Virus record (IMG/VR): IMGVR_UViG_3300049595_000581
Span: 1-22,090 of that record
Reading direction: 5' to 3' (one strand)
From: a virus
DNA length: 22,090 bases
The position numbers were made by a program, and so were the translations under genes. Positions 18,128 through 22,090 of the stretch are shown in pieces; position 1 is the stretch's first letter; each line of letters begins with the position of its first letter. Below the pieces are notes generated by a model that had not been told where the DNA came from, made no database searches, and was given only the letters and a program-made list of their open reading frames with translations.

Positions 18128-18906
18128 TGGCATTACTAACTAAGTCTAAATTCTATTTCGGGGTTTCGGTCGATTCAGAAAATAACATCCTTGATATTGA
18201 CGAAGGAACAGGGTCGTTTCCAGTGACTCTCGCTGTGAAGGCCTACGCGCCTAGTGAGATCGCTACGGCTCTGTCTTCGGCACTGAATCAGGCCGGAACC
18301 CTAACCTACACAGTTTCTCTCAACCGCACCACACGCCTACTCAAGATCACGGCCAGTGGGGCCTTCTCTATCCGTAGGGCCACGGGGCCGAATAGCGCCT
18401 CCAATATCTATTCGGTTCTTGGCTTTCCGGGTGGGACTGACCTCACTGGCCTATCTCAGTACGAGGGCACGGTGGGCGTGGGCTTCGAGTTCGAGCCTCA
18501 GTTCTATCTGCTGGACTACGTTCCTCTGGATCATAACGTCAAGAGCGTGAAGGCCTCGGTAAACGAGACCGGATCGGGCGCGGTCGAAGTGATCCGGTTC
18601 GGGACGAAGCGTTACATGGAATGTTCGATCGACTTTATCTGTGACCGGAAGTTCATCGGTGACGATATTTGGTCGAGTAACCCGAACGGGATTGAAGACG
18701 CGCTCCGGTTCATGCGCTACTGCACTGAGAAATCGACGGTCGAGTTCATGCCGAATCGGTTAGACGTTGCGAACTATACGAAACTCATCTTAGAATCCAC
18801 GGAAAGCGACTCGCAGGGTACAGGGTTCAAGCTGTTGGAGATGCTGGACTACGGCGAGGGCCTTTACAGGACTGGTCGCTTGGTATTCAGGGAGGTTAGC
18901 TCATGA
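18127..18906 (+). CDS. distal tail (Dit-like)/tail tip protein
   Basis: A 259-residue protein directly after the tape measure. Residues about 15-115 form a small alpha/beta domain (ILDIDEGTGSFPVTLAVKAY, then a helix SEIATALSSALNQAG and strands), of the same general type as the tail tube insert. Residues about 130-259 resemble the tip proteins that follow tape measures: a FLLDYVPLDHNV-like strand, KRYMECSIDFICDRKF, EDALRFMRYC, VEFMPNR and a C-terminal GEGLYRTGRLVFREV strand. It probably forms the ring that links the tube to fibers. Coupled by overlaps on both sides (TGATG and ATGA). Confidence 0.65.
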   Translation: MALLTKSKFYFGVSVDSENNILDIDEGTGSFPVTLAVKAYAPSEIATALSSALNQAGTLTYTVSLNRTTRLLKITASGAFSIRRATGPNSASNIYSVLGFPGGTDLTGLSQYEGTVGVGFEFEPQFYLLDYVPLDHNVKSVKASVNETGSGAVEVIRFGTKRYMECSIDFICDRKFIGDDIWSSNPNGIEDALRFMRYCTEKSTVEFMPNRLDVANYTKLILESTESDSQGTGFKLLEMLDYGEGLYRTGRLVFREVSS

Positions 18907-20138
18907 GCGTTATCAATGGACAGAAGGCCGACGCGGCGACATTCAACTCGGCTTTCGGCTCGAAGCAGGACGACAACACCTTCTTCGGCGTCCAGACGCT
19001 CGACCATACCGGATCAGGGGCTCCTGTGGCCGACGTTCAGCAGGCCATCAATGACGTTATCGCTTCCGATGCTCTGAAGATCCCGCTCTCCGAGAAGGGC
19101 CAGCCTTTGGGCGTGGCCGAGCTTGGTGCAGATGGGAAGGTTCCATCGGCTCAGCTTCCGAGCTACGTCGACGACGTGATCGAGGTTCCCACGTTCTCAG
19201 CCTTGCCACCAACCGGAGAGACCGGAAAGATTTACGTCACGCTAGACACCAACTATTCATACCGCTGGAGCGGTTCCACCTACGTCTTTATTGGTCGGCC
19301 TATCGCCACCACTGACGACCTTCTCGAGGGCACAAGCAACCTTTACTTCACCGATGGCCGAGCGCAGAGCGCTACCATCAGCCAGGTGATCACGGATGGC
19401 GTGATCGACAAGGCTCCTTCTGAGGATGCTATATTCGACGCCCTGGCTCTCAAGCTCGATTCCGCAGACTTCGGCACTGAGTTCGACACAGCCTTCGGGC
19501 TAAAGGACACCGATGATCTGGCCGAGGGAGTGACTAACCTTTATTTCACTGATCTCCGCGCTCAGACTGCCACCATCACGGCTACCATTACAAACGGCGT
19601 GACTGACAAGGCTCCTTCGTCTGACGCTGTCTTCGATGCTCTGGCACTGAAGCAGGATGGAATCCAGTTCAAGGATGACGGATCGAACCTTGGAACGGCT
19701 GGCACGGTGACCGAGATCGACTTCGTCGGGCCTGGTGTAACGGCGGCTCGAGTCGGTAACGCTGTCTCCGTGACCATCAACGCGACCGGGACTGGTGGTG
19801 GATGGACGGCCTACTCTGATATTACACTGTCGCCCATCAATGACTCGCTTGCTATTGATACGACCAAGGGCCAGCAGAAATGGCTCGTGTCGGCTGGATC
19901 AAGCTCTGGAGCTGTTCTAGACGTGACTCCGTTCGGTGGCATCCCTCCGACTGGCGACGGCTCCATGATCAGGCTCGTGGGCGCATCTGACGAGAACTGG
20001 GTCGATGTTCAGAATTCGGACATCGTGAACGGCGTGATCCTGAACGGCGGGCCTGCGCGCTTGCATAAGTTCCACATCCTTGATCTGATGTGGGACGCAA
20101 CCCTTCAACGCTATATCGAAGTAAACAGGAACTTTTGA
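18903..20138 (+). CDS. tail fiber/stalk protein with tandem NLYFTD repeats
   Basis: A 411-residue fiber. The N-terminal anchor has VINGQKADAATFNSAFGSKQ, then LGADGKVPSAQLPSYVDDVI and GKIYVTLDTNYSYRWSGS, a module shared by many phage fibers. Two copies of a repeat follow (residues 137 and 203 onward, period 66): TDDLLEGTSNLYFTDGRAQS and TDDLAEGVTNLYFTDLRAQT, each ending APS.DA.FDALALK. The C-terminal third is beta-rich with a GTGGG hinge at about 296-300. It is probably a trimeric stalk that links the tail tip to the receptor-binding fiber encoded next. Coupled to the preceding gene (ATGA). Confidence 0.8.
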   Translation: MSVINGQKADAATFNSAFGSKQDDNTFFGVQTLDHTGSGAPVADVQQAINDVIASDALKIPLSEKGQPLGVAELGADGKVPSAQLPSYVDDVIEVPTFSALPPTGETGKIYVTLDTNYSYRWSGSTYVFIGRPIATTDDLLEGTSNLYFTDGRAQSATISQVITDGVIDKAPSEDAIFDALALKLDSADFGTEFDTAFGLKDTDDLAEGVTNLYFTDLRAQTATITATITNGVTDKAPSSDAVFDALALKQDGIQFKDDGSNLGTAGTVTEIDFVGPGVTAARVGNAVSVTINATGTGGGWTAYSDITLSPINDSLAIDTTKGQQKWLVSAGSSSGAVLDVTPFGGIPPTGDGSMIRLVGASDENWVDVQNSDIVNGVILNGGPARLHKFHILDLMWDATLQRYIEVNRNF

Positions 20139-20148
20139 GGTATAAGAG

Positions 20149-22086
20149 ATGGCACTGAATAGCAACTTCCGCACACTGACAGCCGACAACATCGAGGGGA
20201 TCGTCGAGGATAGGAACTACCTGAAGTCGAGCTTCGAGAACGGAACGATCACTGGATGGCGCGAGATGGCTGTCACTGTTGACGCAAACGGATTTCCTAA
20301 CGCGACTCCTACCATCGGGACGGATGCCTCTCCTAACGCGGCATCTTCGCTGTCTCTATCTGCCACTAGCACGACTCCGCTATCTGGAACTCGATCGCTT
20401 CTCGTTACTGTTCCGACCTCGTTAAGCCAGGGTCAAGGCTTCATCTCTGAAGAGTTCACTCTCGACCGGATGGATCTCGGAAAGGTTCTCACTGTGTCGT
20501 TCGACTACGAGCGGATTAGTGGGACTTACAACTTCTCTGGAACTCGCGGATCACAGACCTGGATGGTTTACATTTACGATGCTACGGCTGGAGGGGCGAC
20601 ATGGATTCAGCCTGCTGGCTTCCTCGGGATGAACCAAAGCTCGGGCCCTGGTCGAGTGGCCTGCACGTTCCAGACTAGCGTGACCGCTGGCCAGAAGTAT
20701 CGCGTGGCCGTGATCGCATCACAGGCTGCGGCTGGAGCTTCGTCCATCGAGTTCGATAACTTTACTTGCTCTCGTCAAACCGCTCCCATCGGGCCAGTGG
20801 TGACGGATACTTTAAATGCCGGAGCAATTACCATTGGAGCAACAGTTACAGCTCCAACAAAAGGAACAAGAACCGCCGATTCGGTGTCGTGGATGAGAAT
20901 TGGCGATAGCGCGTATTTTTCGTATCAATATAATCAAACTGGTGCGGGTGCTGCCGGATCTGGCGATTATTTGATTAGCCTTCCTTCCGGAATGTCATTT
21001 GATTCAAACAAGGTTTCATTTTATACGGGTGGATTAGTTAATTTTTCCGCACTCGTTCCTTATGGATTGCCGGATGCTTGGTTTGGATGGGGTCAGTCTC
21101 CCGGAACAAATTCGTATGGGTTAATTATTCCTTACGATTCTACAAGATTTCGCGTTGCATTTGAATACGTTTCGGCCTCTGGGCCTGTTGCAACTGGTGG
21201 GCTTTTTTGGGGATCTGGTGGAAATCAACTTTCCTATGCAACAGTTTCATTTAACGCCACCTTCCAAGTCCCCATCTCCGGTTGGTCGAGCAACGTCCAG
21301 CGTTCAAGTGACACCGACACTCGGGTGGTGTCTTTTGTTGGATCAATCAATGCTCAAGGATATACCTCGCTTACAACAAACCTTGCCATGACTGTTTCAA
21401 AAGACTCTCATGGGGCTTTTAGCTCTGGCGTTTACACAATTCCGGTATCTGGTGACTACTCTGTAAATGCTACTGTTATATCTGACCAAGCAAACTTTTT
21501 CCCTACTGTGTATCTTAACGGAGGTATTTACACCTACGGAACAAGGCAGGCATCCGCATCGCAAGCAACAACTGCGGCCATGCTTATTCCGAATCTAAAG
21601 GCTGGTGATACCATTTCTTTAAGGATTGGCAACACAAACGGAAACACAATTGCTGGTGGTTATTTCTCTATCAATCGCCTCTCCGGCCCGTCCGTGGTGG
21701 CGGCCAGTGAGACGGTTTCATTTTCGGCTAATACATCGACAACAGCGGGATCTACAACGCAATGCTTTATTTATACCGTGAAAGATCACGACACGCACAA
21801 TGCCTATTCGACCATAACTGGTAAATTCACAGTTCCGGTCTCTGGAAAATATGCTTTTGGGGGCTACGCGTATTTCAACGCCGTTGTGGGGTGTTTAGTA
21901 TTATACAAAAACGGGTCAGTTATTTCTCAAGGCATTGAATCAAAGGGGAATGCTTATCCGTCTTTTGTGTCCGCTCAATTAAATTTGGTGGCCGGTGATG
22001 TTATAGAATTAAGACCTACATCATCCGTAACTGCCGGTGGTCAATCTACTGTAAACAGTTTTTATGGGAATAGGATCGGACAATGA
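20149..22086 (+). CDS. modular receptor-binding fiber with tandem C1q/TNF-like domains
   Basis: A 645-residue protein. Residues 1-215 are a carbohydrate-binding-module-like jelly roll (SSFENGTITGWREM, VLTVSFDYERISGTYNFSG, SIEFDNFTCSRQ). Residues about 219-375 are a second beta domain (SWMRIGDSAYFSYQYNQTG, ISLPSGMSF). Residues about 390-515 and 520-645 are two C1q/TNF-type domains, each with a strand like FTVPVSGKY or YTIPVSGDY, a YKNG or YLNG turn and a LKAGDTISL/LVAGDVIEL strand. From about 20806 on the gene turns AT-rich (37% G+C at 21001-21060 against 50% at 20401-20460), with GC-rich linkers between domains. It probably binds a surface sugar or protein. Start ATG 20149, 10 nt after the previous stop. 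Confidence 0.82.
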   Translation: MALNSNFRTLTADNIEGIVEDRNYLKSSFENGTITGWREMAVTVDANGFPNATPTIGTDASPNAASSLSLSATSTTPLSGTRSLLVTVPTSLSQGQGFISEEFTLDRMDLGKVLTVSFDYERISGTYNFSGTRGSQTWMVYIYDATAGGATWIQPAGFLGMNQSSGPGRVACTFQTSVTAGQKYRVAVIASQAAAGASSIEFDNFTCSRQTAPIGPVVTDTLNAGAITIGATVTAPTKGTRTADSVSWMRIGDSAYFSYQYNQTGAGAAGSGDYLISLPSGMSFDSNKVSFYTGGLVNFSALVPYGLPDAWFGWGQSPGTNSYGLIIPYDSTRFRVAFEYVSASGPVATGGLFWGSGGNQLSYATVSFNATFQVPISGWSSNVQRSSDTDTRVVSFVGSINAQGYTSLTTNLAMTVSKDSHGAFSSGVYTIPVSGDYSVNATVISDQANFFPTVYLNGGIYTYGTRQASASQATTAAMLIPNLKAGDTISLRIGNTNGNTIAGGYFSINRLSGPSVVAASETVSFSANTSTTAGSTTQCFIYTVKDHDTHNAYSTITGKFTVPVSGKYAFGGYAYFNAVVGCLVLYKNGSVISQGIESKGNAYPSFVSAQLNLVAGDVIELRPTSSVTAGGQSTVNSFYGNRIGQ

Positions 22087-22090
22087 TTAA
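22083..22090 (+). CDS. probable start of a following gene (partial)
   Basis: ATGATTAA at the window end begins with an ATG overlapping the fiber stop (ATGA), the same coupling seen throughout the module. Only two codons are visible, so nothing can be said about the product. Confidence 0.3.

Follow-up and report, generated by a model that had tools for sequence, protein, structure and literature searches.

In gp38 of the T-even phages, loops lie between glycine-rich motifs. Exchange between conserved motifs is described as swapping adhesin specificity in these phages (Tetart et al. 1998, as cited in PMC7468147). Metaviromic islands of phages from marine and cryoconite settings contain receptor-binding proteins with C1q domains (PMC3909814, PMC7468147); the available portions of these two papers report variable genes or domains along with inferred recombination, and neither linker crossovers nor conserved linker DNA is among the features reported there. 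According to Smug et al. 2023 (PMC10684548), tail fibers and spikes have often undergone recent domain shuffling within the protein; the study works on protein HMMs, and its text does not use the words “linker”, “breakpoint”, or “C1q”. Adhesin shuffling in phages is widely inferred from such protein mosaics, and the DNA rules for its location are rarely visible.

The tail fiber gene described here resembles the T-even adhesins in that short conserved motifs part variable receptor-binding segments and act as crossover points. Unlike in gp38, whole C1q-like beads are exchanged, the linkers are unrelated in sequence, and the phages that carry the fiber are uncultured. Very probably, the fiber consists of a vertically inherited N-terminal part and three exchangeable beads that are swapped by recombination at conserved linkers, with the beads probably setting specificity. 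The swapping principle is already known. What may be new is that such a family, with beads of C1q-like type and joints conserved at the nucleotide level, is widespread in the environment; no description of the linker-bead family or of codon-level joint conservation was found in the literature searched, which covered few subscription papers.

The analyzed DNA, termed the window, is the whole 22,090-nt stretch of virus record IMGVR_UViG_3300049595_000581 and contains terminase, capsid, and tail genes. An open reading frame at 1936-3468 matches ParB-like and DNA methyltransferase families. The gene directly upstream of the fiber contains a 72-nt direct repeat (19389-19460 and 19587-19658, 74% identity), which is an internal duplication in that tail protein. 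The fiber gene itself is divided by three junctions, termed L0, L1, and L2, into an N-terminal domain and the cassettes D1, D2, and D3 (Table 1). It has no Pfam or PHROG match that would indicate homology to gp37/gp38 adhesins. A search of viral contigs with the full-length fiber returned nothing, nor did any relative with the same pattern peptides appear, and this empty result is itself a sign of a mosaic.

Table 1. Positions of the fiber gene and its parts in the window (aa, amino acid; nt, nucleotide; GC3, G+C fraction at third codon positions).
Feature	Position	Strand	Remarks
Tail fiber / receptor-binding protein gene	20149..22086	+	645-aa open reading frame, last in the window; stops 4 nt short of the contig end
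N-terminal domain, residues 1-211	20149..20781	+	Native composition; 77-80% aa and 71-74% nt identity to four relatives
Junction L0 (APIGPVVTD)	20782..20808	+	70-79% nt identity to relatives; GC3 falls directly after
Cassette D1, residues 221-368	20809..21252	+	AT-rich, GC3 ~0.28; no blastn match in four relatives
Junction L1, NATFQVPISGWSSNVQRSSDTDTRVV, residues 369-394	21253..21330	+	GC3 0.73-0.75; nt islands in relatives
Cassette D2, residues 395-505	21331..21663	+	C1q/TNF-like bead by fold; GC3 ~0.35; no blastn match in relatives
Junction L2, INRLSGPSVVAASETV, residues ~508-523	21670..21717	+	GC3 0.76-0.81; specific codons conserved
Cassette D3, residues 524-645	21718..22083	+	C1q-like C-terminal bead; GC3 ~0.37; no blastn match in relatives

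An AlphaFold2 monomer model of residues 214-645, built from a 47-row alignment, shows a row of beta beads with a mean pLDDT of 80.7 and a pTM of only 0.46. Foldseek aligns solved structures of single-chain C1q trimers over the full length of the model; for individual gC1q domains, the TM-score reaches 0.85. The receptor-binding domain of phage TM4 gp23 is also among the matches. Residues 525-624 of D3 match the Pfam family C1q (PF00386; E = 1.3e-7, 32.3 bits against a cut-off of 23.7), and the assignment of D2 to C1q comes from its fold, with no sequence-profile match. The last two beads have a C1q/TNF-like fold and probably all three do, D1 being the least certain. Low-confidence loops are found at linker positions, residues 383-389 (pLDDT < 50) and 514-519, the former of which lies within L1 and forms an inter-bead loop in the model.

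Four relatives give the clearest view of how the parts of the gene are inherited. These contigs (L115-L118) were retrieved with the N-terminal domain as the only query, no linker being used, and all four carry the linkers. Their upstream genes are mostly 78-87% identical in nucleotides to those of the window, with two genes at 67-73% and some matching only partly in L117 and L118. The N-terminal domain appears to be inherited vertically with this phage backbone. D1, D2, and D3 have no blastn match in the four contigs and reach ~39-48% nucleotide identity, which is the level of unrelated sequence. Islands of near identity stand at the linkers, 21-63 bp long with 83-100% identity at L1 and 36-48 bp long with 87-97% at L2. 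The same pattern is seen when the five phages are compared in all ten possible pairs, and in each phage GC3 follows the same divisions (N-terminal domain 0.61-0.69, linkers L1 and L2 0.62-0.94, beads 0.27-0.46). The preliminary description had proposed exchange of receptor-binding domains at conserved linkers and named a shared domain set with even divergence in relatives as the pattern that would speak against it. The opposite is seen in these relatives: their D1-D3 are unrelated, islands remain at L1 and L2, and, as shown below, breakpoints fall at linkers, all of which support exchange at these sites.

The linkers recur far beyond these relatives. A DNA pattern for L1 that allowed every synonymous codon retrieved 37 viral contigs and one contig of a Deltaproteobacteria MAG, and a degenerate L2 pattern retrieved 92 viral stretches, 80 of which were taken further. 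The two patterns yielded at least 101 fiber open reading frames, at least 90 after removal of near-duplicates. The loci were gathered by linker motif, so that the shared linker protein is partly a matter of construction; the shared linker codons are not, except that the L2 pattern excludes AGY serine at one position. Nearly all fibers follow a common plan: an N-terminal domain, a GAPVTD-like junction, a variable domain with W-RRVGDS, L1, a bead, L2, a bead, and an RVGN end. The linkers, with consensus VPIxGWSSxVQMSxDTDTRVVAA for L1 and RLSGPSxIAASETV for L2, are the most conserved protein stretches of the fibers, and a search for them in other phages, as the preliminary description had proposed, found them joined to different domains in at least 90 other viral contigs. 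D1 of the window has 65% amino-acid identity over 64 residues to L002 (the same record as L008), and related D1 domains have other partners in both L003 and L004, in the latter behind a collagen-like stretch. In L111, the first fiber open reading frame, 650 aa long, joins a collar-type phage end, GSETRPANQAVAYHI, straight to the latter half of L1, GNVQLSDSTDTRVVAA; the junction here seems to lie within the linker. Exchange between the second and third slots was not seen among the fibers; the best D2-to-D3 identity is 0.47, which indicates no recent change of slot.

Where the beads part from each other was mapped with a single change point per contrast, which located a junction in 47 contrasts among the at least 90 deduplicated fibers. 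Within these contrasts, which are not phylogenetically independent and fall in the majority at L0, 38 of the 47 change points lie no more than 12 codons from a linker center, against 5.1 expected, with a median offset of 3 codons. The remaining 9 are outside linkers. Pairs that include the window break at codons 221-222, at L0. Individual pairs illustrate each joint. Amino-acid identity is 0.98 in the N-terminal domain and 0.97 in D1 for L024/L022 before dropping to 0.34 in D2, and L042/L111b falls likewise from 0.96 and 0.95 to 0.31; the DNA of both pairs is ~95% identical through the N-terminal domain and D1 and unrelated past L1. For L112/L072, an identity of 0.97 in the N-terminal domain gives way to 0.42 in D1, with DNA ~90% identical through the N-terminal domain and unrelated past L0. 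L051/L008 have D3 alone in common (amino-acid identity 0.69).

Codon alignments place the edges of identity within the linkers themselves. Identity stops inside L1 at GGC TGG TCT in L042/L111b, at CAA GTA in L108/L087, a pair that also declines stepwise through D2 and D3, and after two Val codons in L024/L022. For L051/L008, nucleotide identity starts within L2. The window and L112 have 10 consecutive codons of L2 in common (30/30 nt), with flanks of ~50% identity on both sides. Two fiber genes on one 104.5 kb contig (L050/L086) have ~50-65% nucleotide identity up to L0; past it they reach 97-100% through most of D1-D3, with one patch at 70-80%. This pattern fits duplication plus conversion and would point to a recent duplication or gene conversion.

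The exchange would proceed by annealing at the linkers. Beads would be traded between phages, and also between paralogous fibers of one phage, through crossovers in L0, L1, and L2, each linker offering about 25-80 bp of near-homology inside non-homologous DNA. Joining at the linkers would most likely be performed by a phage single-strand annealing recombinase, of the ERF type in the relatives, with one or more beads replaced per annealing event. An ERF-family annealing recombinase is encoded by all four relatives (E ~1e-25), the window itself being a 22 kb fragment. The enzyme varies among carriers: of 34 carrier records, which include many fragments, 10 have ERF and 4 have a RecT match, with three of the RecT matches exceeding the cut-off. 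An annealing recombinase is nevertheless the probable agent, and the borders of the exchanged fragments carry the short homology (21-63 bp, 83-100% identity at L1 and L2) on which it could act. Rad52-like recombinases drive homology-based mosaicism in phages and tolerate divergence, as reported by De Paepe et al. 2014 (PMC3945230). The present case is similar in that exchange is homology-driven at diverged borders and ERF occurs in relatives of the window; that work reports recombination assays in lambdoid phages, whereas here the gene and the anatomy of its junctions are described.

Diversity-generating retroelements and invertible fibers typically have hypervariable fiber ends with fixed borders. 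A dedicated system of this kind, in which a retroelement diversifies the fiber ends or site-specific recombination inverts them, would account for the outline of the present fibers and is the least probable of the explanations weighed, with hardly any likelihood left to it. Neither reverse transcriptases (PF00078) nor serine recombinases (PF00239), the two families covered by this search, turned up in the 34 carrier records, which include many fragments, while both were detected in control genomes. No long inverted repeats are present around the fiber (18900-22090), and the differences affect whole domains rather than codons. The recombinases of the carriers seem to point to ordinary short-homology annealing over a dedicated system. 

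Beads exchanged by annealing at the linkers would probably determine which receptor is bound and thereby the host specificity. A change of receptor or host range through bead exchange is suggested by the position of the beads at the fiber end and by the presence, in other phages, of variable islands that encode C1q-type receptor-binding proteins, and such exchange would probably let a phage alter its binding target on bacteria.

Base composition along the gene marks the same joints. The AT-rich domains and GC-rich linkers of the preliminary description (37%, 60%, and 77% G+C) are borne out by recounting, with fractions of 0.367 at 21001-21060, 0.600 at 21261-21300, and 0.767 at 21681-21710. 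The sliding-window profile suggested at that stage, run on GC3, drops at codon ~221, just past GPVVTD, and then peaks twice, at 369-394 and at 506-523, returning to low values after each peak. L0, a third, N-terminal junction that goes beyond the preliminary description, marks the start of the AT-rich part. GC3 is 0.61 in the N-terminal part of the fiber and 0.51-0.77, mostly 0.6-0.75, in the other genes of the contig; linker GC3 is 0.73-0.81, and that of the three domains is 0.28-0.37. The AT-richness of the domains is uneven, with a small GC3-rich stretch at residues ~241-255. The contrast between linkers and domains sits in synonymous codons. With linker bounds chosen after the GC3 profile was seen, 32/42 codons other than Met and Trp end in G or C in the linkers versus 116/374 elsewhere within residues 221-645 (Fisher p = 2e-8). 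The two top 16-codon GC3 windows coincide with both linkers (residues 369 and 506) and were compared with 20,000 synonymous shuffles of the same part of the gene (P = 0.007 for the top window and 0.0005 for the second), which means that the GC-rich linkers are due neither to chance nor to amino-acid composition.

Across the family, the segment equivalent to the N-terminal domain tracks genome GC3 with a slope of 1.06 (48 fibers). Among 68 phages with enough flanking genes, cassettes are below genome GC3 in 58 and linkers above it in 49; the AT-richness of the bead cassettes relative to the genome possibly comes from a shared AT-rich pool. Adjusted for amino acids, GC3 is 0.525 in the linkers against 0.405 expected by genome usage (excess 0.12, z 8.8) and 0.328 in the cassettes against 0.415. 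The linkers are thus GC-richer than their own genomes predict and are not merely native remnants amid foreign domains. Native genome composition alone is ruled out for the linkers by this excess, as is amino-acid composition by the genome-usage expectation together with the synonymous shuffles. The GC3 peak is sharp: at L1 it spans codons -4 to +15, at L2 codons -4 to +11.

Two rival explanations address this composition. The first dispenses with exchange: conserved linkers would retain optimal GC-ending codons under selection for accurate translation, and the fast-evolving domains would drift toward AT. The linkers are indeed the best-conserved protein stretches, and they are GC3-rich in most relatives, L1 exceeding D1 in 35/39. 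This account is nonetheless very improbable, because nucleotide identity of 95-100% breaks off abruptly within linkers, and because equally conserved columns outside the linkers have a GC3 excess of +0.013 versus +0.158 and +0.184 in the linkers, which also rules out generic codon selection at conserved sites. The recurring codons, AGG included, are moreover not simply GC-ending. The second explanation is GC-biased gene conversion at recombination hot spots, with high linker GC as a by-product of frequent exchange. It would fit an excess of 0.12 over the genome expectation that is confined to the linkers, where breakpoints cluster, and it is unlikely rather than remote, since the codons retained are specific in sequence and not in GC content, and this specificity is partly seen in separate lineages too.

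The codons CTC TCC GGC ... GCG AGT GAG recur in linkers across phages that are nearly saturated at other synonymous sites. At L2, CTC is found in 37/61 (6 expected) and CTG in 0/61, TCC in 51/90 (8 expected), GCG in 47/88 (16 expected) in preference to GCC, and AGT in 49/63 (9 expected), with AGC in only 6; at L1, GAT is the recurring codon at position +11. Across 18 separate lineages, AGT is kept in 11/14 and GCG in 13/18. Codon identity at L2 is 0.63 versus 0.31 expected in phages with related N-terminal domains and unrelated beads, and a small excess is seen in unrelated phages (0.361 versus 0.292-0.326), a few of which have near-identical linkers. The joints are conserved as DNA. High identity with related backbones and specific codons across lineages indicate that the linkers descend with the backbone and keep older nucleotides, and they may occasionally be exchanged between phages.

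Conservation of specific codons across lineages could also reflect another function of the linker DNA, such as an RNA structure, a regulatory element, or a protein-binding site, with exchange incidental to it. This is improbable; RNA folding of the linkers is not clearly stabler than in synonymous redraws (mean z: L1 -0.26, L2 +0.11), which rules out RNA structure as the cause of conservation. Selection for homology, repeated exchange, and conversion are all candidate causes of the persistence of linker nucleotides. One tentative proposal, which we consider possible and somewhat short of an even chance, is that the linkers are kept as DNA too, their synonymous codons forming a docking sequence shared across many unrelated phages that gives access to a common pool of beads, with the nucleotides preserved by selection for recombinability or by repeated linker exchange. 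At least 90 distinct natural fibers with three identifiable joints, at which the nucleotides persist as the beads to either side change, make several matters testable: the minimal length of homology, a possible retention of synonymous codons for recombination, and the sharing of one pool of receptor-binding beads by phages of differing base composition. The conserved L1 codons AGG GTG GTG G.., absent from L1 of the window and found at many loci, such as L014, L032, and L036, spell GGTGGTGG, which is near the Chi octamer of E. coli.
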